Positions 19,272 to 36,356 of a stretch of 64,000 nucleotides of DNA are shown in pieces. Origin of the DNA: Anaeropeptidivorans aminofermentans (GTDB taxonomy: Bacteria; Bacillota; Clostridia; Lachnospirales; UBA5962). The DNA lies in contig NZ_OW711693.1 of assembly GCF_940670685.1 (NCBI RefSeq), forward strand, positions 3,286,001 through 3,350,000, given 5' to 3'. Position 1 is the stretch's first letter. The number at the start of each line of letters is the position of its first letter. The position numbers and the translations under genes were made by a program. The notes below the pieces were generated by a model, which made no database searches, was not told the origin of the DNA, and saw only the letters and a program-made list of their open reading frames with translations.

Positions 19272-19358
19272 CTCAAGGTCTATAAAAAGCCTTGAGTTTA
19301 CGTTATTTGTGAAAGCTGGGCTGGATGGATTCGAACCATCGAATGCAGGAGTCAAAGT
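19272..19358 (-). mobile_element. Attachment site: exact 46-bp tRNA-Gln 3' half with terminator
   Basis: 19313-19358 is identical over 46 bases to 31507-31552, covering the acceptor end, T arm and anticodon arm up to the anticodon loop of tRNA-Gln. Below it lies the hairpin AAACTCAAGG/CCTTGAGTTT, matching the tRNA terminator. The tRNA 5' half is missing. Together with 31.5 kb this defines a 12.2-kb segment bounded by direct repeats. Confidence 0.88.
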
Positions 19359-19624
19359 GCAAATAGCTATTTTTTAAGGCATATTTGTAGGGGCCTGGTG
19401 ATGCTGATTAATGCCTATCAGATCTAGGAAATAAGCCGTTTTTAATGCAAATACGCTAAATATCAAACAAATAAAAAGAAGAATTATAATAATTATTTTT
19501 TTGCATTTTTTTACACGGCCTCGCTACTGAAATTATTTTTTAAAATAAAAGTATCCTACATATACCCTATATAATTTATCATAAAACTTAACTTAAATAG
19601 TCCTTAGTTTTAAAGAAAAAATTT

Positions 19625-20908
19625 TCAGCTCTTAACGGCATATCTTGTTTTTTTGCCAATGCCAATTTTATAAATCAAATCTTTTTCCTGCATTTCTTTT
19701 AACAAGTTGATTGCATAAGTAGTGCCAATGCCTAAAGCCTCTTCAACATCAGAACGTGTGATTTCTTTCTTTTTGTCAAATAAATTCAATATAGGTAAGT
19801 ATTTTGCTTCCACAGAGGATACTATTTGTGCATGGATGTTTGGCAAAGTAACCCTGAAGGCGCCTTCTACAGTTTCAAATTTGGGCTGTAAAGAATGGCC
19901 TTTATAAGAACTTATGATTTTACCTAAGCCTGTGACCTATGCTTCAATTAATTTTACATGATAAAATATATTTGCCAGTTTTTCATTTCTCGGTTGTGAT
20001 GCACCGAGCATTGCCGTTTCTAAGGATAAGCCCAGAATTAAACCGCCTAAAGAAATAAATTCCAGCCTGTCAGAATAGAGATTAATAAAGGTACTTCTGC
20101 CAGTCTCTGTGAACGATAGCATTAAGCAATGCCTCACGAACGTCATCTTCTGGATAGTCCTTTCATCTGTACGGAGTAAGTCTTGAAAGGTTGCCTTTGT
20201 TCTGTTATAGAAATAAATAGTTTTATAGGCCGCATTAACCTGGGTGAATAAAGAACCGGTTAATTCTCTTCCGTCTTTAAATACCAGTTTATCCGTGCCT
20301 TGGAAAATGGCAAATTTAATAGAACGCTTACACTGATCAGATACTAATAAAGCCATATTTGTATATATTGTTGGAAGAAAGAATCCCTATATTCTTCATC
20401 TGAACAGGGCTGAACTCTAAGTTTCGCTTTGCCATCTCTCCTTTTAATGCATGAAAAGTAAGTTCTCGAATTAAAGAGCGGTTACTTTCAAAGGTATCCC
20501 CGTCTGTGTCTTTTATCATCATGCGAATGGCATCTTCAGAGACAGGGGCAGAGGTTGTTCCGTTTCGAATGTATATGCCTGAGACTTTTAGCCTCTTCTC
20601 AGATAAATAATAAGGCTTTTTAGTGCCTTGGCTTGTTATTTTGATAATACTTTTTCCATCGTCTTTTACTACTTCAATGTTTACAAACATAGATAAATCA
20701 GTGCGAATACTGTCTCTTAGAGAATTTGATATTGATGCGTTACAAAACCAGCTTTGCCAACACCGATTACTTTACCGTCATCTCAAAATCCTATATATAT
20801 ATTGTGCCGCCATTTGTATTAGCAAAGGCAACAATCTCTTTCTTTAAATCAGATATATATACTTCTTTTAATCCAACAGATAACTGATTCGCTTTTATAT
20901 AAGTCCAT
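19625..20908 (-). pseudogene. AlbA-2 type ATP-binding regulator, multiply broken
   Basis: Pieces in order on the minus strand: an N-terminal divergent AAA/AlbA-2 segment (KEIVAFANTNGGTIYIG, then an in-frame stop), a long open part from about 20690, a frameshift near 20345, another near 20115 that scrambles EALLNAIVHRDW, an in-frame TAG at 19937 where the family has tyrosine in IEAYGTG, and a C-terminal winged-helix part ending GKKTRYAVKS. The intact family consists of cytosolic ATP-binding DNA-associated regulators, often found on mobile islands. At least four lesions make it non-functional. A shorter remnant of a relative lies near 15.9 kb. Confidence 0.8.
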
Positions 20909-21037
20909 GGTATCACTCTTTGTAACAGTTAATATCACTTTATAACACTAATTCAACACAAAAAGTGATAGAAATCAAACAAATATGTATGATAGCTTAC
21001 AACAAAAAGATATTGTCCCTTATTTTTGCCACAATCA

Positions 21038-21355
21038 TTACTTAAGTTGCGCAAAATAATCTTTTGCTGGCTCAATATTTTCTGAATACGATCTCAAGAT
21101 TTCCTTCGTTTGATTTTGACCATTTGGGAATACATATGAATCTGAAAAATCATTATAAGCCGTTCCATTTTCTATAGCTTTTAGCAGCGTATTTTTATCA
21201 TTCGTATTAATATACCAGCCGCTCAAATCCTCTACATACCAACCTGTGTCTGTGTCAATATAATCATTACCCTCACCTGAATCAATTATGAATATTTTGC
21301 CGTTCTTTTCTGCTTGTTTCATTACAAATTCAATAAAAGGTTCCTCGTTTAACAT
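21038..21355 (-). CDS. Probable immunity protein of the third MuF toxin
   Basis: 105 residues with AAGGAGGATTTT before the ATG. It follows the toxin frame after 15 bases. It carries an acidic, tryptophan-rich centre (DTGWYVEDLSGWYINTN) and lacks signal peptide or membrane helices. I do not recognise the family. By position it is the antidote for the RNase-like tip encoded just upstream. The gene is intact although the toxin is broken, so it may act as an orphan immunity gene. Confidence 0.7.
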   Translation of the reverse strand: MLNEEPFIEFVMKQAEKNGKIFIIDSGEGNDYIDTDTGWYVEDLSGWYINTNDKNTLLKAIENGTAYNDFSDSYVFPNGQNQTKEILRSYSENIEPAKDYFAQLK

Positions 21356-21370
21356 TAAAATCCTCCTTCT

Positions 21371-22770
21371 TTATGGCCAAATACGTGTAGCGCCCTGAAC
21401 TCTTAAATTATTAATCCCATCTTTCATAATCGTGACAAAGTTTTCATTCAAATCCGTTACGACAACACCGTTACCCTGTATATAGAATTTTGCTTATCCT
21501 GGAGCATTAGAGCTATTTGGTATTTTTTTGCCCATACCCATCCATTCCCCTTGTCGAACTTCAGTTGCATTACCATAGATATCGTTTATTGTATTTCTCA
21601 GGATATTTCTTACATTAGGGTCTGCTGGATCTAATCCATAATCTTGTGCGTGCTTTCCGATCTTTTTACCAAACTGACCATCATCAATGTTTAACTTCCT
21701 ACTTGAATCCTTAGCACTCTTGCTGGTTTTACTAAGAAGTTCTGCCTCGTTTGATAAACCCAAAGCTTTACTGTTATTAACATAAAATTCCTTAATTTCT
21801 TTTGCATATTGGGAACCTTGAAGAAATTCTTCTTTAAAATACTTATCAGCTTCATCAACCTTTTGAAGAGAATTTAAGGCACCGCTGTTTTTGGCGGTAA
21901 AATAGCTTGTAACACCAGACAGGCCTTCAAGAATAAGCCCTGTAAATATACCCCCTACAGTAGTACCCAGCTGAGTAGTGTTATAGGTGGCAATAATCCA
22001 AGCTTTATCTTTATTGCTTAGCTTGTCCTCATAGTGTTGAAAGTTTACTTTACTCATTTCTCCGTGGGACTCAAGAATATCATAGATAGCTAAGCGGTCC
22101 TCAATAACGGGAAGCTTTTTGTACTTATCATAATTAAGGAGAAAGTCTATTTTCTTGACTACCTTATCTGAGAGGAGAGCATCCTCAAACAGCTGCTCAA
22201 CAATGAGCTTATCTGCATATCTTTCATAAAGCTCTTCTATATAATCAGGGACATTTTGCAAGTCATTTCTTCTTTCATCTTTGCTTATATAGGTTTCAGT
22301 CGGATTGTAAAAGAAGGACAAATCCTCAACAGGTAAAGTTTCTTTCAGCATATTGATAAATGCTTTCCTGTTGGGGAATGTTTCCTGAGTGTCCTTGTCT
22401 TTATCTTCTGAGATTAAAACATCTTTAAGTATATTTTGTTTTTCATCTTCTAAAAAATTATCGCTGCCAGTTGCAATCTCGCATTTGCAATTGGGGTGCA
22501 TAGGGGGAAGATTGATTCCCTCCTCGGCTTTATCAATAGATAAAATACTGCCGTTAAGGGCCTGACATTTTTTGCAGGCGTCTGAAGTGCTGTACGAAAC
22601 AGGTAGTGCTTATAACCTCTTAGCCTAGCCACATACAAGGCTAATTTAACTTCCTGTTCTTTAACCTTGTCCTGCACCTTATTAATAAAGCTTTCTATTT
22701 CCTTATCAAATTCACGGTGTATTCTGTTTAATATGCTGCCAATTTTGTAATTTCTGCTGGAATAGCCAAC
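21371..22770 (-). pseudogene. MuF-domain polymorphic toxin, truncated, frameshifted and stopped
   Basis: A diverged relative of the toxin at 1785-3383. The head domain starts only at the YSSRNYKIGSIL segment (22770), a frameshift near 22590 breaks it within the CKKC region, and the frame then runs through HPNCKCEIATGSD and the linker to a tip with FGKKIGKHAQDYGLDP. A TAA at 21494-21496 interrupts the tip; the same frame continues as AKFYIQGNGVVVTDLNENFV and ends at ATRIWP (stop at 21371). The GKHAxDYG and FVTI features resemble BECR-fold RNase tips. With no start region left it cannot be expressed normally. Confidence 0.8.
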
Positions 22771-23055
22771 CAGTACACAGGCTCGGCGGGAGAGGGCTTT
22801 GTGGATTATTTGAGACAAACAGAAAACACCATTATTGTCGGAACAAATACAAAGGGCGCTTATTCCACCGGAAATGTTGTCCAAGTAAAGCTTCCCTATA
22901 GTAAAATTGCTATCTCCTGCGGCTTCAATCTACATCTGGAGCCGGATTTGCCAAGTATCGAGGGTATTGGCATAGAGCCTGATATTTGGGCACCACCGGA
23001 TGAAAGCCTTGAAAGAGTCATTAAATTCATAGAGAATTATGGATTAGCGGATTAA
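22745..23055 (+). pseudogene. C-terminal fragment of an S41-family peptidase
   Basis: The plus strand reads QYTGSAGEGFVDYLRQTENT, the active-site serine region of S41 (C-terminal processing/tricorn-like) peptidases, followed by IIVGTNTKG and the closing GIGIEPDIWAPP. Everything upstream of the catalytic segment is replaced by the truncated toxin head on the other strand, so the two genes are joined head to tail by a rearrangement near 22765. It has no start site. Confidence 0.75.
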
Positions 23056-23084
23056 ATGAAGATGTAAAATAATTGCCTGTGAAG

Positions 23085-23122
23085 AACCCTTCTATAAAAA
23101 ATAAAAAATGGAAGGGCTTTTA
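23085..23122 (+). terminator. Hairpin after the S41 fragment
   Basis: ACCCTTCTAT pairs with ATGGAAGGGC-type sequence and is followed by TTTTAATG, 30 bases past the stop. It probably served the former peptidase gene. Confidence 0.6.
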
Positions 23123-23331
23123 ATGCTAAAAAAAAAGTAAATGAGTAGGGTAGAAGAGTAGTAATAAAGTGATTTTCAAACAACCCAATACATATATGCT
23201 CAACACTCCAGAAATGCGTGCCAGAACTGAACCCTTCACCTTAAATCAACATTAATTGAAGGGCAAAAAGGTGAATGCCAGTTATCCGCCTACAAAAAAA
23301 TGCCAAGTGTCCGATTTCTCATCTATATAAT

Positions 23332-23447
23332 AGTAACCGCAAGGCTAAAAACCTTGCGGTTACTATGTTTTTTGGTGGAGATAAGCGGAATTGAACCGCT
23401 GACCTCTTGAATGCTATTCAAGCACGCTTTTATATATTGGTATCCCC
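23332..23447 (-). tRNA. Degenerate tRNA-Ala gene with terminator (pseudo-tRNA)
   Basis: On the minus strand GGGGATA pairs with TATCTCC, followed by ACCA, with an intact T arm (AGCGG/CCGCT) and an anticodon stem CTTGA/TCAAG. The loop reads ATAGCAT, giving AGC where I expect GGC, and the D arm has decayed. The tRNA body is 23372-23447; at 23332-23363 a strong hairpin (AGTAACCGCAAGG/CCTTGCGGTTACT) follows. Probably not functional. Confidence 0.7.
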
Positions 23448-23530
23448 ATAAAAATGCTTTCATGAGGATTTTAAATACAAAAACGAAAAAATCAAGTCCC
23501 ATACAAACCTTGGATTTTCTATGTTTTTAA

Positions 23531-23580
23531 TGAAGGTACCACCCAGATTTGAACTGGGGGTGAAGGAGTTGCAGTTGCTT
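23531..23580 (-). tRNA. 3'-half remnant of a tRNA, Cys-like
   Basis: The minus strand shows CTGCAACTCC (anticodon GCA), a T arm CCCAG-TTCAAAT-CTGGG and an acceptor end GGTACC, matching the 3' half of Clostridial tRNA-Cys. The 5' half is absent and unrelated AT-rich sequence begins. A weak hairpin lies below it. Another integration scar or decayed tRNA cluster. Confidence 0.55.
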
Positions 23581-24081
23581 AAATACATTGTTATATAAAT
23601 TTATAATACTTCAGATTAAATCAAAAAACGGCTATTTTAAAAAGATTTTAGAGAGTAAGCGTGTACAGGAAACTATATACAAAAAAGAAGTTTTTCAAAA
23701 TTTATTAGAAACCCTATTAGAAAACATCATTAACTAATTTTTAGAAATAGATTAGGTGGTCTAAGAAAAGCATTGCTGCTTGTCTGTACGCTCTTAAAAG
23801 TATATATTCTACGTCTCATCAAAAATTTGAGAGAACTTATATGCCTTCTTCTGCATTATTTTATAATTTGTACTACCATCATTAAGGTGAGCAAATCCAA
23901 GATCGCACCTATTTTAGGCGCTATGCATTTTTCGATATCTTTCAAGGGAATTTATCGTTTGCCTTTAGCAAGTATTCAAATCTCAATGACAGAGGTCCTA
24001 AATATAAAAAAGGATAAAGCACTAAATAGGCTCGATTAGGCTCCTCAACGTTTTGCACCCACTTTAATTTATAGTAAGCAT
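23581..24081. other. Gene-free stretch before the exporter gene
   Basis: No gene supported. An 88-codon plus-strand frame at 23773-24039 has no ribosome binding site and an atypical composition; fragments of a decayed minus-strand frame (KCIAPKIGAILDLL) are readable but unassigned. Confidence 0.4.
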
Positions 24082-25704
24082 TTATAAAACATCAAAATTG
24101 ATTACCTCATCAGCTATTTTAACAAAATCTGAATGATGAGTAATAATAATTATAATTTTATTTGCCTTCTCCTTTTTTAAAATATCATATAAATTCCATA
24201 TACTTTTTTTATCTAATGCTGAAGTTGGTTCATCCATAATTAATAATTCAGCCGTCTTGTTGAGTGCACCAATAATTGCTATTTTTTGCTTTTCTCCACC
24301 AGAAATATTATCAGGGTTTCTTTGTATGGAAAAATCTAATCCTTCGTCTAAGGTATCTATAAACTGATTAAAGTTAAATTGTGTTGCTATATTTCTGAAC
24401 CGACTATCACTTTCAATATTAAGATTATCTCGAACAGAATCGAAATAGAGCTCTGGCTCTTGAAGCACTACTGCACATTTAGATTCCCGAAATTGACTCA
24501 TATTGATATCTTTAATATTAACTCCATTTATTTTTATTTTTCCAGAATAATTATAGAGTAGACCGAGCAATAAAGTATATAATGTACTTTTTCCAGAGCC
24601 ATTTTTACCTGAAAGCACATAAATTTTGTTTTTTTCTAATTTTAAATTTAGATTGCGTAATACCATTCTTTCATTATCATATGAGAAACTTAAGTCTGAA
24701 ATTTCAATATTATGGAGCTCTCCAATTGATATCTTTCCTTCTATTTCTCTTTCAGCATCAAGTATATTGCGTAGCCTATGGTAAGATACCAAAGCGCTTT
24801 GATAGGATTCGCTATAATTTAAAGCGTAAGATATATTAGACATTAAAATCTGAGAGTATGTATTGATTATAATAAATGTGCCTAAGGTCATGTTACTGAT
24901 AAGTATTTCCTTCGCTGAATAAAGAAAAATAATACTGTTAATCATATATTTAGCTATACTATCAATTATTCCATATGTCTGCTTTATCCAAATATATTTC
25001 ATTTTTGAAGATAGAAATGGCCCAAAACTTTGAATAACTTTAGAGTCTGTGCTATCAAAAATTCCATTCAACTTAATATATTTAATGAACTCCAGTTGAT
25101 GGTGCATCTTAGAAAAAAAATTGTTCTGAATTTCTCTAAATTTAAAATTTGCATTATATAATGGTTTTTTAAAAAAATTGTAAAACACAAAATAAACAGG
25201 TATGAGTCCAAAAATCAGAATAGTCATTATTTTGTTTAGCTGAAACATATATATAGCAATATATACAAATGAAAGAACTGTGGTTAAAATAGACATTATG
25301 CTTTGAATTGCAAATGCAGTTAAGTTTTGTGAATCGTTATTTATTCTTTCGGTAAAATACGCTGATGAATTCTCACTTAAATATGATAGTGGTAATCGTT
25401 TCAAATGTGTAAACACATGATATTTTATGTCAAATTCAGCCTTTGTATAAAGTTTTGCTGATGTAATATCATTTATAAAATCAGCTAATATTTGAATTCC
25501 CCAAGAAATAAATAGTATAATCAATATTCTAAAAGTATTGTTTTCATATTCTATTAAAGTATTTTTAAGTGAGTCAACAAATATCCCAACCAAATAAGGA
25601 TTAAATAACGATAATATCCATATTAGTGATGATAGAAAAAAAAATAGAAAAAAAATACTTTTATGTTTTAATAAAAAAGGAAATATAAATTTATATAATG
25701 ACAT
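24082..25704 (-). CDS. ABC exporter (membrane domain fused to ATPase) of the RiPP cluster
   Basis: 540 residues. The N-terminal two-thirds hold about six membrane helices (FLLKHKSIFFLFFFLSSLIW onward). The ATPase has Walker A GKNGSGKST, the signature ISGGEKQK, Walker B LLIMDEPTSALD and the switch histidine in ITHHSD. It exports as a homodimer. There is no C39 peptidase domain at the N-terminus, unlike many bacteriocin exporters, so leader removal must be done by another protein. The gene starts 9 bases after the radical SAM stop and is the last gene of that operon. I infer export of the matured peptide; multidrug-type export is the alternative. Confidence 0.9.
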   Translation of the reverse strand: MSLYKFIFPFLLKHKSIFFLFFFLSSLIWILSLFNPYLVGIFVDSLKNTLIEYENNTFRILIILFISWGIQILADFINDITSAKLYTKAEFDIKYHVFTHLKRLPLSYLSENSSAYFTERINNDSQNLTAFAIQSIMSILTTVLSFVYIAIYMFQLNKIMTILIFGLIPVYFVFYNFFKKPLYNANFKFREIQNNFFSKMHHQLEFIKYIKLNGIFDSTDSKVIQSFGPFLSSKMKYIWIKQTYGIIDSIAKYMINSIIFLYSAKEILISNMTLGTFIIINTYSQILMSNISYALNYSESYQSALVSYHRLRNILDAEREIEGKISIGELHNIEISDLSFSYDNERMVLRNLNLKLEKNKIYVLSGKNGSGKSTLYTLLLGLLYNYSGKIKINGVNIKDINMSQFRESKCAVVLQEPELYFDSVRDNLNIESDSRFRNIATQFNFNQFIDTLDEGLDFSIQRNPDNISGGEKQKIAIIGALNKTAELLIMDEPTSALDKKSIWNLYDILKKEKANKIIIIITHHSDFVKIADEVINFDVL

Positions 25705-25713
25705 AATCTAGCC

Positions 25714-27021
25714 CTATCTTTGTTCTGACAGACACCAATTTTCATATACGAATTTTAATTTATCCTTATAACTATGTAAATCATGGCAGCATGCATAGTT
25801 ATCTTTATTATTTATTCTAAAGTAAGCACAACCGCCTTGACAGCATGGTAAATATGTACAGGCTTTACATTCATCAGACAAATCTAAGCTCAACCATTTT
25901 GTCTGCTCATAATTATATACTGGACCTGTTTTAACGCTGCCTATATTGTTATCTTTAACATTGATTTTGTTCCAACACGAGTATAATAATCCATCTGGAG
26001 CGACAACGTATTGCCCTAACCTTTCAGCACCACAATATAGATGCTTTTGTAAAGGATATAGTCTATTTCTAAATTCATCTGGGGATAGTCTGTATTGCAT
26101 TTTTGCAACCTCAGTATCTAACTCTCCAAACCTTTCCATGTTAATCATATACTTTTCTTTATTAGCATGAGTTTCAGAGGTATTATCAACGGGAGCTAAA
26201 TAAAAGTATGGATTTACCCCCCATCCCATATCATTAATAAAATAATCAATCAATTGTAATATATCCTGTTCATTTTTAGAATCAACATTAATACGCACAT
26301 TAATATCCATAACATCTTTTGCCTGTTCAATATTACTAATGAGCAATTCAAAACTATCTTCGCCATTTTTTAATATTCTTCTTTTATTATGGATATCTTT
26401 AAGCCCATCTATAGTGATTTGTGCAAATGCAACTTTTTTTCCTCTCAACTTTTGAGCTGTCTCTCGATCCAATAATGCACCGTTCGTAATAATTCCAGCA
26501 CCATAGTCAACATCATTTTCGCTACATATTTTTATTAATGCATCCGAAAGATTATAAATTATTTGCGTTTCTAATAAGGGCTCTCCTCCGAACCATGTAA
26601 CTTCAAGATGTTTGCATGAGTTTCCTTTGAGATACTTCTCTACAAATTCAACTAAATCATGCTGGGTTTCCTCACTCATTACCTCCTTTGTATGTTTTTC
26701 AAAACAATATGGACATGCCATATTACAATACATGGTTGGAGCAATGGTAAGGCTAACTGCCTCGGTATCATTTCTACTTAAATTCCTCAAAATAGAGATT
26801 TGACCAACTTCGTCAATATCCTCTTGGACAATAAACCCAGCCTTTTTCATTAAATCTATTATTTCTATATTTGCAGCATGCTCATCTATATTCTCAATAT
26901 TATTGTATATTTCTAAACCTTCTTCATCTAATTCGGTGAAAATACCTGAATATGTATTATACATTAAACTATATTCCGAATTTTTGTCCACTTCAATATT
27001 ATAAAAGGATTTTTTATACAT
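25714..27021 (-). CDS. Radical SAM/SPASM peptide maturase
   Basis: 435 residues from an ATG with TTGGGGGC upstream; an in-frame TTG at 27033 is less likely. Residues 1-75 resemble the peptide-recognition region of such maturases. The radical SAM motif CNMACPYC (CX3CX2C, residues 99-106) is followed by WFGGEPLLE. The C-terminal SPASM region has cysteines in YCGAERLG, LYSCWNK, CKACTYLPCCQGGC and ACCHD, enough for two auxiliary iron-sulfur clusters. Enzymes of this layout form thioether bonds from cysteine side chains in RiPP precursors (sactipeptides, ranthipeptides). The six-cysteine peptide gene lies just upstream on the same strand, so I infer that this enzyme crosslinks it. It resembles the Clostridial Cys-rich-peptide maturase family (CcpM) from memory. 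Confidence 0.9.
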   Translation of the reverse strand: MYKKSFYNIEVDKNSEYSLMYNTYSGIFTELDEEGLEIYNNIENIDEHAANIEIIDLMKKAGFIVQEDIDEVGQISILRNLSRNDTEAVSLTIAPTMYCNMACPYCFEKHTKEVMSEETQHDLVEFVEKYLKGNSCKHLEVTWFGGEPLLETQIIYNLSDALIKICSENDVDYGAGIITNGALLDRETAQKLRGKKVAFAQITIDGLKDIHNKRRILKNGEDSFELLISNIEQAKDVMDINVRINVDSKNEQDILQLIDYFINDMGWGVNPYFYLAPVDNTSETHANKEKYMINMERFGELDTEVAKMQYRLSPDEFRNRLYPLQKHLYCGAERLGQYVVAPDGLLYSCWNKINVKDNNIGSVKTGPVYNYEQTKWLSLDLSDECKACTYLPCCQGGCAYFRINNKDNYACCHDLHSYKDKLKFVYENWCLSEQR

Positions 27022-27303
27022 AATTGCCCCCAATAATTAATAATTTATATTACTAGTTCACTAGCTAATAAATTATCTTTTCAAAAAGTTATCTTAGCTT
27101 TTTAAAGTTGGATTATCTGTTTAATAAACGAATACGACTAATATAAGACATTAATTGGGTAAACATTAAATCAATTAACAAAATAATGTACCTTTTATTT
27201 CCCCTATTTTTTTAAACTTACACTATACTTAGTTTTTCACTTATATATTTAGCTAAATATCAGCCTTCTTCTGTATATAAAAGCAACATAACGCTATAAG
27301 TTT

Positions 27304-27347
27304 CTTAGGAACTACTGATTTATTGTAATAGGCCAGTAGTTCCTAAG
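27304..27347 (-). promoter_or_regulatory. Hairpin between precursor and maturase genes
   Basis: CTTAGGAACTACTG and CAGTAGTTCCTAAG form a perfect 14-bp stem with a 16-base loop, 62 bases downstream of the precursor stop. No T-run follows on the minus strand, so it is more likely an mRNA-stabilising or processing hairpin, or a partial attenuator, than a full terminator. Such hairpins often keep precursor mRNA more abundant than enzyme mRNA. Confidence 0.75.
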
Positions 27348-27408
27348 AGACAATTAAGTATAAGCCCATAAGAATATGCAAGTACTTAATCCTATTAAGA
27401 TAGCGTTC

Positions 27409-27528
27409 TTATCTACTTATGCAATGGCTGCAAAAGCAAGCCTTTTGACAACCAGCATCGCAAGCATTACATTTAATAGTGATCAGTGTAGGCTTCTTAA
27501 CAAGAATTTCAGGATTAATGATTTTCAT
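27409..27528 (-). CDS. Six-cysteine RiPP precursor peptide
   Basis: 39 codons, shorter than usual gene-finder cutoffs. AAAGGAGGAGGC lies directly before the ATG. The leader is MKIINPEILVKKPTLITIK, 19 residues with no GG cleavage motif. The core starts at C20 and has cysteines at 20, 23, 27, 31, 33 and 36 (CNACDAGCQKACFCSHC) before ISR. Six cysteines in 17 residues with interleaved small residues is the pattern of thioether-crosslinked peptides made by radical SAM/SPASM enzymes. From memory it resembles the CLI_3235-type Clostridial Cys-rich peptides. It is first in the operon with the maturase and exporter. Bactericidal, signalling or metal-binding roles are all possible. Confidence 0.88.
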   Translation of the reverse strand: MKIINPEILVKKPTLITIKCNACDAGCQKACFCSHCISR

Positions 27529-27578
27529 AAGCCTCCTCCTTTCTCGTTATTTTTATATAATGATAAAATATAATGTTT

Positions 27579-27650
27579 GATAAAATTAAGTAGGATTTTG
27601 AGTCTGATAGAATTAAGTAGAATACTAAGTTCGATAGAATTAAGTAAGAT
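27579..27650 (-). promoter_or_regulatory. Three 27-bp-period direct repeats upstream of the precursor
   Basis: The 18-base unit GATARAATTAAGTARRAT starts at 27579, 27606 and 27633, exactly 27 bases apart, with 9 unrelated bases between units. It lies 51 bases upstream of the precursor ATG. An AT-rich segment with TATAA-like elements lies between. I infer an operator array for an activator or quorum-sensing response regulator. Confidence 0.75.
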
Positions 27651-27698
27651 GTAGGTCAGACAAAGAAATTAAATCTAGAAAGTGAAATTATTAATAGT

Positions 27699-27728
27699 AA
27701 GGTTATATGATATATATATCATAACCTT
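27699..27728 (-). terminator. Hairpin after the cytosolic S41 gene
   Basis: AAGGTTAT and ATAACCTT flank an AT palindrome (GATATATATATC). It lies 79 bases past the stop of the S41 gene and before the repeat array, so it insulates the precursor promoter from upstream transcription. Confidence 0.6.
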
Positions 27729-27806
27729 TAATTTGTGTCAACATATCTCTAACTATATTTTTTTTATCATTTATTTGGTTACTTTTGATATAATTAATTA
27801 CAATTA

Positions 27807-29114
27807 TTAATTTAAAGATAAATATTCTACAATTGGGTCTTTCCCTAAAATATAATCTGTAACAGATATATAAATTTCTTTGTCAGGCACTAATACATTG
27901 TGGTTACCTACACAGTCAGTAATAATATCCAAATCAAAATCTTTCAAATGCTTAAAGTTCTTTGAGGATAAATTAAATTTAAACCCTGTGTTTTTCATAG
28001 TATGAAATATTGGAGCAGAATATCCAAGAAAGTTCCCTCCGGAGGGCTCCCCTAATATAGTTGCAGCTGTTGAAATTTTAAGCCATGCCACTTGCTTGGT
28101 AGCTAAAGAAAAAGTATGAATATCTGTAAGTATAATTAAGCCATTATTTTCGTTTTTATAGTCAATGATGAAGTTAAGCCACTCATCATTTAAAGAGCCT
28201 GTTCCACCCTCATTTCCCCTAAAATCAATTATAATTTTTTTAGGCATAACTTTTTCGACTCTATTTTTTAATGAAATAAAAAACCTATTTAACTCATTAT
28301 CTGTTAAAATAAGTGAGCCTACTTTAATGTAGATGCCATTTATATCTGGCATTTCACATATTATTATCGAGTTTTGGGGGTACTGTCTATAAAGCGGTGT
28401 CTCGGTTGACTCTTTTACATAAATCAAGTCAAGCTCATTTTTTAAAATCTTATACTTATCAATAAACTCTATTCTATATTCTGATATAGAACCACTTATC
28501 TTTTTAACTCCTAAATTAATGGTTTTGATATTGCTATTTATCAAATCTAATGCTTCTAACATTATATATGAGGAAATATTTTTTATAAATTTACTTTGAG
28601 CATTATAAATGTTATCATATCCCGTAAGATTTTTAAATTTTTCAAATATATCTATTATGTTATTTCCATTTATGCTTATTAACTTACTGTTAACTATATC
28701 TGCATATTTTTCCAAGTAACTTCCAACACACCAAATCTCCTTATCTAGATATTCAAAATGCAATGGTATCACTTCATTCACAAAAGGATTCTCAAAGCTA
28801 CTTTTATATATAAACTGTCCAGCACTATGACCATCATTTGGCAATGCTAACGTTTTCTGAATATTTATTTTTATATCTTTGTCATCTAAAAAGGTAATAT
28901 TTTCCTTAATTAAATCAACATTTTTTATTTTATTTTCAAATAAACTTAGCGTATCTGTTTTTATTAATACGTCATGAAAAGTACTTTTATATGTCTCTAA
29001 TTCTTCTATTAAATAATTTAAATCATCTTTCCACAATTGAATTCGTTTACTGAATTTTCTTTTATCAGTATTCATAATATTAAGTAAAGGCTTATCCTTT
29101 TTAAAATTTTCCAT
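27807..29114 (-). CDS. Cytosolic S41-family peptidase of the RiPP cluster
   Basis: 435 residues from an ATG with AAAGGAAATG upstream; a TTG start 18 bases earlier overlaps that site. No signal peptide or membrane helix is visible. A helical N-terminal part contains LALPNDGHSAGQF. The S41 catalytic half has IIDFRGNEGG, TDIHTFSLATKQVAWLKIS (with the serine of TFSLA) and LGEPSGGNFLGYS. The protein ends ILGKDPIVEYLSLN, close to the ending of the divergent partner. S41 enzymes cut proteins near C-termini or inside unfolded segments. Lying beside a precursor gene with no GG leader and no C39 exporter, it is the best candidate for leader removal inside the cell. Confidence 0.85.
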   Translation of the reverse strand: MENFKKDKPLLNIMNTDKRKFSKRIQLWKDDLNYLIEELETYKSTFHDVLIKTDTLSLFENKIKNVDLIKENITFLDDKDIKINIQKTLALPNDGHSAGQFIYKSSFENPFVNEVIPLHFEYLDKEIWCVGSYLEKYADIVNSKLISINGNNIIDIFEKFKNLTGYDNIYNAQSKFIKNISSYIMLEALDLINSNIKTINLGVKKISGSISEYRIEFIDKYKILKNELDLIYVKESTETPLYRQYPQNSIIICEMPDINGIYIKVGSLILTDNELNRFFISLKNRVEKVMPKKIIIDFRGNEGGTGSLNDEWLNFIIDYKNENNGLIILTDIHTFSLATKQVAWLKISTAATILGEPSGGNFLGYSAPIFHTMKNTGFKFNLSSKNFKHLKDFDLDIITDCVGNHNVLVPDKEIYISVTDYILGKDPIVEYLSLN

Positions 29115-29378
29115 ACTTTCATTTCCTTTCAATAATAGATTTATTTATTAATCAAAATATTAATTATTGAAAACTTTTGCATTATTATAATTTCAAACTA
29201 AAAATGGCTAACCCTTTAATTTAGATAATCATATTGTGGGAAATAAAATATACAATTTTAAAATGTCGACTATTCTAATTAAATGCTTTGACAATTTAAT
29301 GCTTTAATATATAATTTTAAGCATAATATATTTTAATTACAATTTAAAATTATTTTTTTAAAATAAGGGAGAATTTCT
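29115..29378. promoter_or_regulatory. Divergent promoter region of the two S41 genes
   Basis: Very AT-rich. For the plus-strand gene, TTGACA at 29288-29293 and TATAAT at 29310-29315 are separated by 16 bases, 63 bases before its ATG, a near-consensus vegetative promoter. I cannot place the opposite promoter with confidence. Confidence 0.75.
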
Positions 29379-30725
29379 ATGCATAAAAAAATTAAAAATA
29401 TACCTATATTTGTAGGAATCTTAACCGTTTTATTAATTAGTGTATTCGTTATAGGTAAAATCAACTTATCTCATAATGAATTTGTAGGGCCTCGCCCAGA
29501 TACTGTCAAAAGTAATGATACTGAGCGAAATATTAAATGGGTCGAAGATATTGATTATTTTAAAAAATTATTAAACGGCTATATAAGCAGAACTCTTGAT
29601 ATAAAAAATAATGAAGAGGATGCCCGAATAAGCGAAGTCTTTACTTTAGAAATTGAACGGCTTAAAAATGACATTCCCTATCTTAACAACTTTGAGATAG
29701 AAGCGAGAATACAAATGATTACAGCCTTGTTTCATGATGGTCACATGGCTACCGAATTTTTATGGGAAAGTTATTATAAAAATGCTTTGCCCTTGTCCTT
29801 TACTTTATATGAGGATGGTATATATTGTACCACAGTTTTTGATAAGTCCTATAAAAATGCCTTGAATTGCAAGTTAAATGCTATAAATGGTGTATCAATT
29901 GATACAATTTCTGATAGATTTGAAATATTTTTTACAGGTGACAATATCTATGATTCGAAATCAAAACTTAGCAGACGTATAAATTGCCCTCAGGTCCTTA
30001 AAGGATTAGAAATTATAGAAAGTATAGAAGACCCCGTAACTTTTACACTTACAACCTTAGAAGGAGATACTTTTGATTTATACGTTGATAAACGTATAAA
30101 TCAAGATATAAATCATGAAAGTTTCATTAAGAGAGATGAAGGTGATGAAGCCTTTTTTAATCGGGATGTAAAAAATGATAAAGATTACTGGATTGAATTT
30201 TTAGAAGAAAATAATATATTATATATCCGCTCCTATTATATTCCACACACCAATGCTCTTGATAAACTTAATGAAAATATTCTTAACATTTTAACAGAAA
30301 AACAGGTAGATAAAATAGTTTTAGATTTACGTGGAAATGAAGGCGGCCAAATTACACTTGAGCATAGCTGGAATGATACCCTGATATCCTTTGGCAATGA
30401 AACGGGGCATTTATATGTAATAACTGATTATGACACATTTTCTATGGGCGCTGTAACAGCGATATACTTGAAAGAGAAAGGGAATGCCGTCATTATAGGC
30501 CTACCACCTTCTGGAGGGGCCCCAAAGGTTGCGGATATGACCCCCTTTGAGCTTCCCAATTCAGACTTTATGGTAAACATTCCTCAAAACAAATTCAGGT
30601 CTAAAGTAAAAATAAACCCAAATTTAAAAGACAATATACTTGAACCTGATATTCAAACTGGTATAGATATTAATAACTATATTCATAAAACCGACCCTGT
30701 TTTAGAATTAATTAAAACCTTTTAA
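29379..30725 (+). CDS. Membrane-anchored S41-family peptidase of the RiPP cluster
   Basis: 448 residues with GGGAGA upstream. It begins KKIKNIPIFVGILTVLLISV, one membrane segment, so the peptidase half should lie outside the cell. Shared features with the divergent gene are LFHDGHMATEF, LDLRGNEGG, TDYDTFSMGAVTAIYLKEK (catalytic serine in TFSMG) and LPPSGGAPKVADM. Both end in a similar KTDPVLEL/KDPIVEYL tail. I infer a second cleavage or clean-up step after export, or immunity by degrading the peptide at the cell surface. It has its own consensus promoter and terminator, so it can be expressed independently. Confidence 0.85.
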   Translation: MHKKIKNIPIFVGILTVLLISVFVIGKINLSHNEFVGPRPDTVKSNDTERNIKWVEDIDYFKKLLNGYISRTLDIKNNEEDARISEVFTLEIERLKNDIPYLNNFEIEARIQMITALFHDGHMATEFLWESYYKNALPLSFTLYEDGIYCTTVFDKSYKNALNCKLNAINGVSIDTISDRFEIFFTGDNIYDSKSKLSRRINCPQVLKGLEIIESIEDPVTFTLTTLEGDTFDLYVDKRINQDINHESFIKRDEGDEAFFNRDVKNDKDYWIEFLEENNILYIRSYYIPHTNALDKLNENILNILTEKQVDKIVLDLRGNEGGQITLEHSWNDTLISFGNETGHLYVITDYDTFSMGAVTAIYLKEKGNAVIIGLPPSGGAPKVADMTPFELPNSDFMVNIPQNKFRSKVKINPNLKDNILEPDIQTGIDINNYIHKTDPVLELIKTF

Positions 30726-30774
30726 ACAAACAAATTTATAATTATCTATAAAATATAATTTTGCAAGAGGCACA

Positions 30775-30812
30775 AAAAAGTAGCAGAATATGTATCTTTC
30801 TGCTACTTTTAA
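30775..30812 (+). terminator. Terminator of the membrane S41 gene
   Basis: AAAAGTAGCAGAA pairs with TTCTGCTACTTTT, ending in TTTTAATTATTTTG, 50 bases past the stop. Confidence 0.88.
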
Positions 30813-31045
30813 TTATTTTGCCAGTTAGTCAAACGGCCTTTAATAAGATTCTCTAACAAGGCTTACTGGCGTATTGTGCTTATATCATCTTCCACTTTTT
30901 GAGTTCTGCATTATCCTTAATTCCAAAACGGCTGCGCAGAGCATTGGTGTCGCTGTAACAGTAAATCGACTCCGAGGTTGCAAAATATCATATTTATTAA
31001 ATAAAAACTCCACCTTGACTGATTCAAACAGCCCTATATAAATCT

Positions 31046-31427
31046 TTGTTAATAATAGAGCCATATAAAGAGCAACAGAAACAGAATAAGTTATTGCAAC
31101 CAAATGATTACGTTGATGAAGGCTATGTATTCACTCACCCAGATGGCAGGCTTATATCTCCCAATTATATAACCAAACATTTTAGGCAGTTATTAGAGCG
31201 CAATAATTTAGAGGTAATAAAATTTCACGACTTATGCCATTCATCAGCCAGCTACCTCTTGTATCTCGGATATAACCTCAAAGCAATATCAACTTGGTTG
31301 GGGGCATGGTGATATAGGCACTACGATGAATCTATATGCTCATATGGATTTGGAAGCTAAAAGGAGTATAGCAGAAAATCTTAACGATAAATTTTCCAAT
31401 ATGGCTTCTAATCTTATATATGATTAA
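31046..31427 (+). pseudogene. C-terminal part of a dead tyrosine recombinase (integrase)
   Basis: The plus strand encodes GYVFTHPDGRLISPNYITKH, then FHDLCHSSASYLLYLGYNLK and, after a shift, GHGDIGTTMNLYAHMD, ending NLIYD. Tyrosine-recombinase box II should read HxLRH; here the catalytic arginine is a cysteine. One extra G in a GGGGG run breaks the WLGHGDI frame. The nucleophile tyrosine in NLYAHMD is present, but the N-terminal half is missing. It lies 80 bases from tRNA-Gln, the usual position of an integrase relative to its attachment site. Confidence 0.88.
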
Positions 31428-31449
31428 AATTTTAGACAGGCAGTAAAAT

Positions 31450-31494
31450 TAGTAAAAAAAATAGAATCAAGGTCTATACAAAACCTTGATTCTA
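31450..31494 (-). terminator. tRNA operon terminator
   Basis: TAGAATCAAGG pairs with CCTTGATTCTA and on the minus strand is followed by TTTTTTTTACT. It ends the tRNA-Gly/tRNA-Gln transcript and was copied, in changed form, beside the half-tRNA scars. Confidence 0.92.
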
Positions 31495-31509
31495 TCAGTA
31501 AAAATGAAG

Positions 31510-31581
31510 CTGGGCTGGATGGATTCGAACCATCGAATGCAGGAGTCAAAGTCCTGTGCCTTACCGCTTGGCGACAGCCCA
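31510..31581 (-). tRNA. tRNA-Gln (anticodon TTG)
   Basis: A 72-base cloverleaf: acceptor TGGGCTG/CAGCCCA, D arm GCCAAGCGGTAAGGC, anticodon arm CAGGACTTTGACTCCTG, T arm GATGG-TTCGAAT-CCATC and discriminator G. CCA is not encoded. Bases 31507-31552 are the attachment core shared with 19313-19358. Confidence 0.96.
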
Positions 31582-31592
31582 TTATGAAATTA

Positions 31593-31664
31593 AGCGCGAA
31601 ACGGGATTCGAACCCGCGGCCCTCGCCTTGGCAAGGCGATGCTCTACCACTGAGCCATTCGCGC
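31593..31664 (-). tRNA. tRNA-Gly (anticodon GCC)
   Basis: A 72-base cloverleaf with acceptor GCGCGAA/TTCGCGC, anticodon loop TTGCCAA, T arm GCGGG-TTCGAAT-CCCGT and discriminator T. CCA is not encoded. It is co-transcribed with tRNA-Gln, 11 bases upstream of it. Confidence 0.96.
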
Positions 31665-31774
31665 ATAATGTTTTAAATATTAATTAAATTACTGCAATAT
31701 TGTACTATTCAATCTTATAATTGTCAAGAGTTTTCCTTGAAAAGTTAAATAAAAACCTGAGTTTCCATACAATT

Positions 31775-31899
31775 ACAGCAAAACAATGAATTAGCGTAAC
31801 AAAAACCGTATATTTTGAATGGCTTAAAATAGCGATTCTATATTTTAAGCCGTTTATGAAAAATAGGTTTTTGTTCCTTCCTTAATCCTGTTTTGCTAT
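31775..31899. repeat. Family A repeat, copy 2
   Basis: About 125 bp with TACAGCAAAAC / GTTTTGCTA ends and inner GTAACAAAAACCGTAT / ATAGGTTTTTGTT arms. No coding capacity. Confidence 0.8.
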
Positions 31900-32536
31900 A
31901 GTTCCTATTTTTGCAATTTAGGGCAATTATAGAGATATAAATACAATATATAGAAGTACTATGAATAAAATTAAGCCTTCCTTAATTTTATTTTCAAATA
32001 CATTTTTCAATAAAAACTTGTTTATAAGCCTAATTTTATAATCAAAACCACACGCTTAACGCATGGGTATGCCTTGGTCCAATATTATTGGCCGCCCCTT
32101 CAGATGCAATAATGTTTTTTTATGCATACCCTTTTCTCTGCTGTAGGAAACAAGATAGCCTTTTATGGTTTTCAGTTTTGTATCTTTTTTGAAAATTATC
32201 ATCTGCATTACTTAACACTGTTTGCGGAAGCTTTCTATTCTGACGGCTCTTACCTGATGTAATAAAGCATTCTGCCTATATTATGTTAAAATTACGTATT
32301 TTGTGATATTATATAATTATTATCCTAAGTAAGTTTAGAAATGATACAAGTATAGACTGTGAAGTATTCTAAGTAAATATACTTTTATTTGAATCAATAA
32401 TTTAATTTTATTAATTATAATATAGCCGTAACAGTTTCTATACTTTCTCTTAAGGATAATATATAAGAATAAAAAGAAACCCAGCTATTTCAAAATATTA
32501 CTATTGCTGTAAATTCAATTCATAAAGGAGAATTCA
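31900..32536. other. Gene-free leader of the endonuclease IV gene
   Basis: AT-rich, no intact gene. On the minus strand near 32060-32190 a short frame reads KTIKGYLVSYSREKGMHKKT and could be a transposase scrap, but it is too short to assign. Confidence 0.4.
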
Positions 32537-33367
32537 ATGTTAAAAATAGGAAGTCACATATCCTCGGCAAAAGGCTATTACGCCATGGGGAAACAGGCCT
32601 TAAAGCTTAAGGCAAATACCTTTGCGTTTTTTACAAGGAACCCCAGAGGCGGAAGCGCCAAACCCATAGTTGAAGAGGATATTAAGAAATATAATGAACT
32701 GTCTCAGGAAGCAGGCTTTCATAAAATAGTTGCTCATGCCCCCTATACACTGAACGGCTGTTCTGCGGATGAAAGCGTTAGGGAATTCGCATGGAGAACT
32801 ATGGCGGAAGACTTGAAAAGAATGGAGTATACCCCCCATAATTATTATAATTTTCATCCGGGAAGCCATGTAAAGCAAGGCGTTGATGTAGGGATAGATT
32901 ATATATCCCAAATGCTTAATTTTGTGCTTAAAAAAGAGCAAACAACCATTGTTCTTCTGGAAACTATGGCTGGAAAAGGAAGCGAAGTAGGCAGAACCTT
33001 TGAAGAGCTTAAGGAGATTATTGACAGGATAAACTTAACGGATAGAATCGGCGTATGCCTTGATACCTGCCACGTCTGGGATTCGGGATATGATATCGTT
33101 CAGGACCTTGACGGGGTACTGGCGCATTTTGATAAAATTATAGGGCTTCCGTTTCTTAAAGCCATACACCTTAACGACAGCATGAATGACAAAGGCGCCA
33201 GAAAAGACCGTCACGCAAAAATTGGCGAAGGCAGAATAGGCCTTGAAGCAATGGAAAGAATTATTAACCATACTGCCCTCAGAGAACTTCCTTTTATATT
33301 GGAAACCCCTAATGATGATGAAGGCTGGGCAAGAGAAATAGCCCTTTTAAAATCTTTGTATAAATAG
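32537..33367 (+). CDS. nfo: Endonuclease IV (AP endonuclease)
   Basis: 276 residues with AAAGGAGAATTC upstream. It has the TIM-barrel signature of Nfo: [11 protein letters not shown] at the start, the zinc ligands in [72 protein letters not shown] and LETPNDD. It cuts DNA at abasic sites and at oxidised 3' ends in base excision repair. The length matches the family. It is a monocistronic backbone gene just outside the accessory region. Confidence 0.96.
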
Positions 33368-33925
33368 ACTTTTTTCGCCTTCATATTAAGCTGTAAGCCT
33401 ATAATTATATTTTCAGCCATTGCTGTGTATTTTATTTCGGAATGTAAAATAGAAATTCCTATTACAGAAATAATCAGAATTTTTCTATGTTATCTTTTTA
33501 ATGCTATTAAAGAAGATTAAAAATAAAAATGCTTCATTATATTTATATACTATAAAATCTTGCTTAATCCACTGGATAAGGTAGCCCCAAACCACTGGCC
33601 TGCACTTTATAGACCTAACCCTTTGCAATAGCAAAGCCTGTCTTGTTTTGTTTTATTCTAAGCGAATTTAATAATTATGCAAACAGAAACTTATAAATAG
33701 TTTTTTAAGGGAGCGCCTTTTTGTGGCTATTTATTAGTTCTTTTAAATGTCTTCAGGAAATTATATCTTAAAATACAATCGTACCTTAACATAATAAAAA
33801 GAACCTGCATATGCAGGTTCTTTTTATATAAGTAAGCTTTTAAATATTTTTTTAAGTTCACGCTCACCATATGTTTAAAAGCTTTTTCAATCTTATCCAG
33901 CATTACATTATAAGTATAGAATTCT
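33368..33925. other. Gene-free stretch with one terminator
   Basis: No gene. At 33796-33825 the perfect palindrome AAAAAGAACCTGCAT/ATGCAGGTTCTTTTT is a bidirectional terminator between the convergent nfo and M20 genes. Confidence 0.8.
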
Positions 33926-35110
33926 TTATTGATTTAAATAATCTTGAACAAGCTGAACCATTACGGCGCTTCCCTTTGCGAAAACACTTTCATCAAGGAG
34001 AAACTTCGGATTGTGGTGGCCGTAGACAACGCCGTCCTGAGATACAACGCTTCCTAAGAAATAATATGCGCCGGGAACTTCGTTAAGGAAAAAGGACATG
34101 TCTTCCGAGCCCATGATAGCCTGAGGCTGAACGAATACCTTATCGCTGCCAAGAATTTTCCCTGCTCCTTCTATAACCATTTCTGCCATTTCCTTATGGT
34201 TTGTAAGAACCGGATAATCCCATGAGAATTCAAATTCGTAATCAGCCCCGTAGGTCTCACAGGTGGTTTTTACTACCTGCTCTATTCTTTCGGCTATAAA
34301 TTTACGAACCTTAGGGTCTATGCTTCTTGTGGAGCCTTCCATTTCAACCTTTTCAGGAATAATATTAGAGGCTGTTCCCCCGTGAATCATGCATACGGAT
34401 ATTACGGAAGGAGAAAGGGCGTCAAGCTCTCTTGCTTTTATCATATAAATGCCGTTTATAATCTGGGCGGCTATGGCAACAGGGTCTATAGAAAGATGCG
34501 GGGTGGAGCTGTGGGCGCCTCTTCCCTTTACGGCAATTTTAAAGGCATCACGGCAGGCCATGGCATTTCCGTAGGAAACGGCAACTTCTCCCGTTTTAAG
34601 GCCGTCTATCAGTACCCCGATATGCTGGCCGAAAATAGCGTCTACTTTAGGATTTTCAAGGCAGCCTTCTTTAATCATAGGCTCTGCACCTCCGGGAGAT
34701 TCTTCTCCCGGTTGGAATATCAGCTTCACATTGCCTTTAAGCTCTGATTTGTGGTCGTTTAATATTTTTGCGGCACCAAGAAGCATTGCGGAATGGGCGT
34801 CATGGCCGCAGGCATGCATAGAACCGTTTGTGGATTTAAAATCCAATCCTGTTTCCTCAAGAACAGGCAAAGCGTCCATATCGCTTCTTAAAGCGACGGT
34901 TTTCCCGGGGCTTCCCCCTTCAATAAGGGCAACGATACCGGTAACGCTTTTCGTGCAGGTATAAGGAATACCCATTTCATCAAGCTTACCCTTTATGTAT
35001 TCGCAGGTTTTAGGAAGCTGAGTGCCAACCTCCGGTATCTGGTGAAGCTCTCTTCTCCATTTGATAATCTCGTTTTCAATTTCCAAAGCAAGGTTTAAAA
35101 TATTTTCCAT
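33926..35110 (-). CDS. M20-family amidohydrolase (hippurate/N-acyl amino acid hydrolase type)
   Basis: 394 residues with GGAGATGT upstream. Two-metal M20D motifs are present: ACGHDAHSAMLLGAA (about residue 103), FQPGEESPGGAEPM (about 136) and GQHIGVLIDG, plus the dimerisation domain (GRGAHSSTPHLSIDP) and a C-terminal GSEDMSFFLNEVPG. Such cytosolic enzymes split N-acyl amino acids, indole-acetyl conjugates or N-acetyl-diaminopimelate. The substrate is not evident. It stands alone between a terminator and a family B repeat. Confidence 0.92.
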   Translation of the reverse strand: MENILNLALEIENEIIKWRRELHQIPEVGTQLPKTCEYIKGKLDEMGIPYTCTKSVTGIVALIEGGSPGKTVALRSDMDALPVLEETGLDFKSTNGSMHACGHDAHSAMLLGAAKILNDHKSELKGNVKLIFQPGEESPGGAEPMIKEGCLENPKVDAIFGQHIGVLIDGLKTGEVAVSYGNAMACRDAFKIAVKGRGAHSSTPHLSIDPVAIAAQIINGIYMIKARELDALSPSVISVCMIHGGTASNIIPEKVEMEGSTRSIDPKVRKFIAERIEQVVKTTCETYGADYEFEFSWDYPVLTNHKEMAEMVIEGAGKILGSDKVFVQPQAIMGSEDMSFFLNEVPGAYYFLGSVVSQDGVVYGHHNPKFLLDESVFAKGSAVMVQLVQDYLNQ

Positions 35111-35155
35111 AGTACATCTCCTTTCAATGATAGGCCGCAGTTTTCTTATGTATTG

Positions 35156-35284
35156 TAAGTTTTTTAAAGAAGTAACATAAGCCGATTCATTATAAGCTCA
35201 AAACCACAGCTTCCTTCGAAGGCAGTATATTTTGAGAAAGCGTTAAAATACGGTTTTGTTACTGTTTAAATATGCTATACTATA
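35156..35284. repeat. Family B repeat, short form
   Basis: It has AGAAGTAACA at the left, TTCCTTCGAAGGCAGTATATTTTGAG in its middle (two short motifs shared with the 62.8-kb copy) and GGTTTTGTTACTGTTTAA at the right. It contains a CTTCGAAG hairpin tip. Confidence 0.65.
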
Positions 35285-35357
35285 AGCCTGCGTTACTTTG
35301 GTTTTTTGTTTTTAATCTTATTTACATAAGTATAATTATACTTTAAAAAAATATATA

Positions 35358-35395
35358 AATATACCCCTTTATCATAATTTTAAAGGGGTATATTT
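35358..35395 (-). terminator. Terminator of the hslO operon
   Basis: AAATATACCCCTTTA pairs with TAAAGGGGTATATTT and is followed on the minus strand by ATATATTTTTTT. Confidence 0.85.
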
Positions 35396-35471
35396 GCTTT
35401 ATATTGAATTATAAAATTTCGGTTTAATGCTGAATTATTTCTTAAAGCTGCGCTGAGATATTTTTCTGAGC

Positions 35472-36347: not shown

Positions 36348-36356
36348 TTTGTCCTC

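Follow-up and report, generated by a model that had tools for sequence, protein, structure and literature searches.

A divergent radical SAM cysteine-rich peptide cluster of Anaeropeptidivorans aminofermentans and the S41 peptidase genes that recur beside related maturases

The peptide, its maturase and its exporter

A 64,000-nucleotide stretch of the Anaeropeptidivorans aminofermentans genome (contig NZ_OW711693.1, positions 3,286,001 to 3,350,000; hereafter the window) holds genes for a short cysteine-rich peptide, a radical S-adenosylmethionine (SAM)/SPASM maturase, an ABC exporter and two S41 peptidases, S41a and S41b, which we describe here as a putative cluster for a ribosomally synthesized and post-translationally modified peptide (RiPP). 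A sequence-only reading of this DNA had proposed this gene set, and the 39-codon peptide, the 435-residue maturase and the exporter, whose start follows the maturase stop after 9 bases, lie at the positions given for them (Table 1). Both S41 genes are present as well, but S41b is divergent, a point absent from that reading: S41a, the peptide, the maturase and the exporter share one direction and S41b runs in the opposite one. On that shared strand S41a precedes the peptide by 278 bases, and a 387-base gap separates the peptide from the maturase.

The peptide, MKIINPEILVKKPTLITIKCNACDAGCQKACFCSHCISR, is encoded on the minus strand with a ribosome-binding site, AAAGGAGGAGG, three bases ahead of the ATG, and direct reading of its open reading frame (ORF) bears out the six cysteines claimed at residues 20, 23, 27, 31, 33 and 36. 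It is the only one of the 512 small ORFs (25–80 residues) of the window with six cysteines in 18 residues. We consider this richness in cysteine to be beyond chance, because 40 Markov-simulated windows averaged 0.025 such ORFs each; none of these had a ribosome-binding site. The peptide has no match in NCBIfam (up to E 10) or Pfam, and its six cysteines in 39 residues place it within the SCIFF definition of six cysteines within 45 residues.

Relatives of the locus, referred to below by L numbers, support its assignment as a precursor. The closest one, L003, comes from the same family, has a maturase of 44% identity and contains two cysteine-rich ORFs that start MEIINSDF and MEIINQDM. The start of the window peptide, MKIINPEI, resembles these while the cores differ, and a third such start is found in L133, a longer piece of the L003 place. 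The conservation of the peptide beside a related maturase, whose absence the sequence-only reading would have taken as refutation, is seen in the leader start. Next to related maturases, a precursor is expected to keep its leader start and vary in its core, as is seen here as far as sequence can tell. A RiPP locus is recognised by a small gene for a precursor that adjoins a peptide-modifying enzyme and has a leader start that recurs in relatives, and the window locus shows this arrangement. In many more distant relatives, the maturase is likewise adjoined by cysteine-rich ORFs whose starts resemble M-[KE]-x-[IV]; some of their maturase loci gave no cysteine-rich ORF in our scan.

Membership of the Clo7bot peptides was tempting in view of the CX2CX3CX3C spacing, yet TIGR04333 gives no match to the window peptide up to E 10. 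A home-made Clo7bot profile scores it at 2.8 bits, a value reached by 146 of 1999 full shuffles (7%) and 155 of 2000 region-wise shuffles. By TIGR04333, the three tested peptides of loci L028 and L098 are Clo7bot peptides.

The radical SAM domain of the maturase scores above the Pfam cut-off, and the best NCBIfam match is to TIGR04463 (288.2 bits against a cut-off of 525, over residues 7–406). Weak matches to this family are non-diagnostic, as 12 of 14 control genomes have one at E 0.001, and nothing in the genome exceeds its cut-off. Among the 25 of 68 NCBIfam matches listed, 18 are peptide maturases by hand count, and the window protein stays below the cut-off of every family listed. It reaches 256.7 of 600 bits for the Clo7bot maturase TIGR04334, 216 of 600 for the CefB family and 127.1 of 340 for the PapB ranthipeptide maturase NF047865. 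The scores for the SCIFF maturase TIGR03974 (82.3 of 425) and for TIGR04068 (80.1 of 500) rule out membership of the SCIFF and CLI_3235/CcpM maturases, and the CLI_3235/CcpM identity that had been suggested for the locus is not supported, given this score and the lack of an NCBIfam match for the peptide. The search of RiPP families that had been proposed yields related families for the maturase, all those listed being below cut-off, and none for the peptide. By profile score, the maturase is near the Clo7bot and TIGR04463 maturases and under the cut-off of each family listed.

The cysteines of the CxxxCxxC site (C99, C103 and C106) and seven SPASM cysteines (C330, C349, C385, C388, C394, C398 and C411) are invariant in a four-sequence alignment; in a 13-row alignment, some of whose sequences are partial, C411 is not among the invariant positions. 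An AlphaFold2 model made from 13 alignment rows has a predicted local distance difference test score (pLDDT) of 86.9 and a predicted template modelling score (pTM) of 0.87. Its residues 1–83 form strands followed by helices, with secondary structure judged by eye, as in a leader-binding RiPP recognition element (RRE) domain. Foldseek places CteB first (5why/5wgg, E 1.5e-19), followed by TigE and an anaerobic sulfatase maturase. CteB installs a thioether in a six-cysteine SCIFF peptide (PMC8326336). Taken together, Pfam, NCBIfam, the relatives, the model and the fold search give good support to a cysteine-rich RiPP cluster that includes an exporter and a maturase of the radical SAM/SPASM type. 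Judged from its genes, the locus is a real, divergent member of a known broad kind, situated on a probable island.

A related maturase, at E 1e-40 or better, is present in 5 of the 57 genomes of the kin set, the window's own included. Across the class, 16 of 390 other genomes have a member of the maturase group at E 1e-70. Searches of plasmids and phages (419 and 78 records) gave distant maturases only, of less than 60% identity. On a 139-kb plasmid of Paraclostridium bifermentans (L008:5981-9350), nine small peptide genes, seven of them annotated as Clo7bot, precede a Clo7bot maturase. A 10-kb plasmid of Sarcina sp. JB2 (L007:2478-5053) carries a maturase of 35% identity followed by a major facilitator superfamily (MFS) transporter instead of an ABC exporter, and a scan of L007 for ORFs with at least four cysteines gave no obvious precursor. 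A single locus, L231:6527-14105, combines three related maturases, an exporter and small cysteine-rich ORFs.

Neither the window exporter nor those of eight relatives have a Pfam match to a C39 peptidase domain (0 of 9). Since the exporter lacks this domain, another protease must cut the leader, and an S41 enzyme is, from gene content, the likeliest protease to process the peptide. In the two nearest relatives a gene for an Rce1-like membrane protease adjoins the maturase, as if a protease were required but its family were free. Rce1-like proteases did not emerge as a general partner: a profile seeded with L003, L004 and L008 (E 1e-4) matched, among the loci searched with it, only L133 and L134, which are the same places as L003 and L004.

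S41 peptidases in the window and beside related maturases

S41b passes the PF03572 cut-off and S41a falls just under it; the two align at E 4.6e-33. A fold search with the S41a model returned S41 folds on top, and this model is poor (pLDDT 59, pTM 0.41), so that its fold class alone is usable and its active-site geometry is not. Equivalents of His96 and Ser336 are kept in 14 of 14 aligned S41 proteins, the histidine in D-G-H or variants of it and the serine in T-F-S or variants of it, and the glutamate of the G-E-P-x-G-G stretch is not kept across the set. By hydropathy alone, S41b has a hydrophobic N-terminus (2.76) and S41a has no such stretch, which suggests that S41b is probably membrane-anchored or provided with a signal and S41a probably cytosolic. 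S41b was considered as a nisin resistance protein (NSR) and rejected: the TASSAEM motif is absent, and S41a and S41b hold TFSLATK and TFSMGAV. When the S41 profile was compared with solved folds, IRBP, 4ghn and CPAF came out nearer than NSR (4y68, E 7.7e-6). A sequence search of the PDB gave nothing for S41a up to E 1 and IRBP alone, at E 0.2, for S41b.

Of 108 loci with a related maturase, 9 have an S41 gene no more than 2 kb from it. This count leaves out L120 and L229 (the L028 and L029 places), the window itself and L133–L136, which are nearest relatives on short contigs, L135 repeating L046. Within these flanks, 11 of the 13 S41 genes fall in the 2-kb zone, which makes up 30% of the flanks (p 8e-5, position test), and 8 of 13 fall within 1 kb (16% of the flanks, p 2e-4). 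Split by set, the 2-kb figure is 7 of 7 in 80 genome-contig loci (p 3e-4) and 4 of 6 in the 28 loci of two later scans (p 0.047). The first set contributes Tissierella simiarum (L048), Desulfotruncus arcticus (L076), Butyrivibrio sp. MC2013 (L077), Erythrobacter (L091), a Peptostreptococcaceae locus with two S41 genes (L094) and a Defluviitaleaceae locus (L099). From the second come L117, L234 and L242, the last with two S41 genes, all near the maturase, and L231 and L241, where the distances are 5.1 and 4.9 kb. The PF03572 cut-off is passed by 11 of the 11 near S41 proteins of other clusters.

The gene orders at these loci are varied. In L077, L094, L099, L117 and L242 an S41 gene lies on the maturase strand and adjoins the maturase or a candidate peptide. 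L094 reads S41-maturase-exporter-S41-two candidate peptides, L077 maturase-peptide-S41, L099 and L117 maturase-peptide-S41-exporter, and L242 S41-maturase-S41 with overlapping open frames. The S41 gene of L048 is divergent, and that of L076 stands about 1 kb upstream with one gene between. In a 112-row tree of maturases, ten rows carry S41 genes, counting the window; they are scattered and require ten changes, at least seven of them forced by well-supported branches.

The probable tRNA-Gln island and candidate control elements

A 46-bp repeat of the 3′ end of tRNA-Gln flanks the cluster on both sides, and these are the only two exact copies of the stretch in the whole genome. The G+C content is 0.26–0.33 over 23000–31000, 0.31–0.39 in the part of the island left of 23000 and 0.33–0.46 over 32000–38000. 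An integrase remnant sits beside the tRNA gene. From these features we consider 19313–31552 likely to be a 12.2-kb genomic island in tRNA-Gln.

Table 1. Positions in the window of the cluster genes, the ends of the putative island and the candidate control elements
Feature	Position	Strand	Description and basis
Precursor peptide (putative)	27409..27528	-	39 residues; MKIINPEILVKKPTLITIK as leader, then a core with six Cys; direct reading of ORF and ribosome-binding site
Radical SAM/SPASM maturase with N-terminal RRE-like domain	25714..27021	-	435 residues; PF04055, 63.8 bits
ABC exporter	24082..25704	-	540 residues; membrane and ATPase domains (PF00664, PF00005)
S41a, divergent S41 peptidase	27807..29114 (from ATG)	-	435 residues; PF03572, 21.3 bits (cut-off 24)
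S41b, S41 peptidase with hydrophobic N-terminus, gene divergently oriented	29379..30725	+	PF03572, 43.8 bits (cut-off 24)
Truncated third S41, C-terminal part	22732..23052	+	33.6 bits; most similar to the S41 protein of L048, the Tissierella cluster (41% over 94 residues)
46-bp repeat of tRNA-Gln 3′ end, left island end	19313..19358	+	
46-bp repeat within tRNA-Gln, right island end	31507..31552	+	
Integrase remnant beside tRNA-Gln, two short frames	31046..31427	+	PF00589, 26.5 bits (cut-off 27.1) for 31046–31309; second frame by eye
Sigma-70-like promoter match before S41b	29288..29315	+	12/12, the sole 12/12 match of the region
Hairpin between peptide and maturase	27304..27347	-	fold z -4.87; none of 200 shuffles equally stable
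Three direct repeats upstream of peptide, 27 bp spacing	27564..27650		candidate regulator sites

Sigma-70-like matches of 9 or more number 54 in the region against 51.9 expected from shuffles. The hairpin between the peptide and the maturase is the sole exact copy in the genome and has no T-run after it; it may set the ratio of peptide to maturase. Regulated promoters of peptide genes often have direct repeats in such a layout, as found here ahead of the peptide. Rfam gave three tRNA matches over 20000–36000 and nothing further over its gathering score.

Positions 23376–23447 resemble a degenerate tRNA (Rfam tRNA, 30.9 bits, not called by ARAGORN), and a second tRNA-like stretch is visible by eye at about 23530–23570; these are perhaps older insertion ends within the island. 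An ORF at 19937–20353, set among short ORFs, has a RecG-like C-terminal domain (PF13749, 33.7 bits) and looks like a broken island gene. To the eye, the proteins of 586–1161, 1785–3383, 21494–22501 and 22450–22884 look paralogous: they have one part in common and differ at their C-termini. The island copy of these seems split over two frames, and 21497–22501 has no Pfam match.

Proposed pathway, rival explanations and relation to known systems

The reading we favour, with a probability of about 0.55, is that of a radical-SAM-modified RiPP cluster on an island whose S41 proteases process the peptide. Here the RRE-like N-terminal domain of the maturase would bind the leader (start MKIINPE), and the enzyme would install at least one Cys-derived thioether crosslink, most likely of the ranthipeptide type, in the core CNACDAGCQKACFCSHC. 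Cytosolic S41a would cut off the leader after modification, the exporter, having no leader-peptidase domain, would carry the peptide out, and membrane-anchored S41b would trim or degrade the product outside the cell. Ranthipeptide thioethers join a Cys sulfur to a beta or gamma carbon, and those of sactipeptides join it to an alpha carbon. The genes and their domains, the conserved catalytic motifs, the recurring leader start, the S41 genes near some related maturases and the island ends are observed; we infer the crosslinking, its type and number, which S41 enzyme acts when and the role of the product, in competition or signalling. The number of crosslinks cannot be read from the sequence, since SCIFF peptides have one identified thioether despite six cysteines and freyrasin has six (PMC8326336). 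A broader proposal goes with this pathway, and we advance it tentatively, at somewhat less than even odds: S41 serine proteases would be dedicated bacterial RiPP enzymes that were recruited many times into radical SAM/SPASM cysteine-rich clusters, two of them here, one for cytosolic leader removal and one, membrane-anchored, for trimming or self-protection.

A number of observations weigh against processing by S41 enzymes. S41b is divergent and has a promoter match of its own, and hydrophobic N-termini, seen by hydropathy alone in about 11 of the 14 S41 proteins, suit trimming or self-protection more than cytosolic leader removal. The position test assumes independent genes, to which L094 and L242 contribute two each, and the S41 profile was built in part from cluster S41 proteins. 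No S41 gene lies within 2 kb of the maturase in 99 of the 108 loci, many of them on short contigs. The same holds for L003 and L004, on contigs of 4.1 and 3.2 kb, and within this distance S41 genes occur only in L117 of the 16 loci of the class and in L234 and L242 of the 14 loci of the phylum. The S41 label is unclustered on the maturase tree, all 500 shuffles being as low. Repeated recruitment would give this pattern, but on its own so would chance; the position test opposes chance. The surroundings of 39 of the 40 strongest S41 matches outside the host's own, from 391 class genomes, held no related maturase over up to 8 kb on each side, several stretches being ended by contig ends; one of the 39 holds a generic radical SAM gene (38 bits), and the next match in rank, the 41st, belongs to cluster L117. 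The host itself has two further S41 genes (L206, G000:C1:1296094-1297491 and 1304241-1304858), the first 43% identical to S41b, and an 18-kb stretch around the pair contains no maturase. Because of the 39 strong S41 proteins of the class without a related maturase nearby, S41 proteins of this kind are, on such sampling, best described as general enzymes adopted by some clusters.

The main rival explanation, which we consider unlikely, is self-protection: a membrane-anchored S41 would clip the finished peptide outside the cell in the manner of NSR, and another protease would remove the leader. NSR, itself of family S41, has His98 and Ser236 as its His-Ser dyad and acts on a crosslinked lantibiotic (PMC4698656), and S41 nisin resistance genes have been described in resistance gene clusters (PMC9958725). 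The hydrophobic N-termini of S41b and most of the aligned proteins are in line with this, as are the conserved histidine and serine without the glutamate. However, neither S41a nor S41b keeps the NSR motif, the S41 profile lies nearer to other solved folds than to NSR, and S41a appears cytosolic. It is more improbable, in our view, that the cluster consists of peptide, maturase and exporter only and that the island, as a patchwork, brought the S41 genes into their neighbourhood as bystanders. The repeats, the integrase remnant and the gene fragments of the island would suit such an origin, as would the divergence of S41b, the distance of the host's other S41 genes from maturases and the 39 unaccompanied S41 proteins of the class, but the clustering of S41 positions in nine loci on separate branches, with several S41 genes inside the gene run, argues against it. 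The S41 processing put forward by the sequence-only reading therefore gains from the recurrence of S41 genes beside related maturases, while self-protection and chance neighbourhood in the island still stand as alternatives to it.

A different doubt concerns the chemistry of the maturase, which might form C-C, cyclopropyl or other bonds by radical means while the cysteines bind a metal or pair as disulfides. The cysteine spacing of the peptide may also resemble that of small metal-binding peptides. TigE is the nearest solved fold after CteB, and SPASM peptide maturases are chemically varied (PMC11002830, PMC9062424). Against this reading, the nearest fold of all, CteB, makes thioethers on six-cysteine peptides (PMC8326336), and several of the best-scoring NCBIfam families modify cysteine-rich peptides; we hold other chemistry to be improbable.

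Returning to a thioether-forming cluster with S41 processing, we find partial counterparts among known systems. With Clo7bot (TIGR04333, TIGR04334) the locus shares a short M-K-x-[IV] leader, CX2CX3CX3C-type spacing as in the L028 and L098 peptides, and a nearby exporter; unlike Clo7bot, which has an array of peptides, the window has one, and its maturase stays well under the Clo7bot cut-off (257 of 600 bits). It resembles SCIFF CteA/CteB in having six cysteines in fewer than 45 residues and in its nearest solved maturase fold, but differs in its low TIGR03974 score (82 of 425 bits) and in the narrow spread of its maturase group in the class, SCIFF peptides being widespread in Clostridia (PMC8326336). 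TIGR04463 maturases are the best NCBIfam match, at 288 of 525 bits. NSR has in common with the S41 proteins here the family, the His-Ser pair and the membrane association that S41b probably has, but not the TASSAEM motif, and the profile reaches it only weakly. To our knowledge, fungal dikaritin clusters have no radical SAM enzyme. They are RiPP clusters that contain an S41 gene (PMC6514808), a likeness to the window in cluster content.

A 2023 review of how leaders are removed from bacterial RiPPs names families S8 and S9 in its part on serine proteases, and S41 appears there only within DOI strings among the 12 of 18 matches listed (PMC10885120). Among the matches listed from the open literature, none reported S41 enzymes of bacteria in peptide clusters of the radical SAM kind, and the name Clo7bot gave no papers. 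The new part of these results, they suggest, is the S41 link: a minority of related clusters share this protease partner, which we found undescribed.

Proteases of the S41 kind are not commonly associated with such peptides, and the recurrence of their genes hints at an undescribed step of processing or self-protection. If S41 enzymes remove leaders, they would be a marker for genome mining and would offer a selective protease for in vitro production. If they serve self-protection, the recurrence would say that the peptides harm cells, and an antimicrobial role would therefore be favoured over signalling. Either outcome would make the role of a large group of peptides testable.

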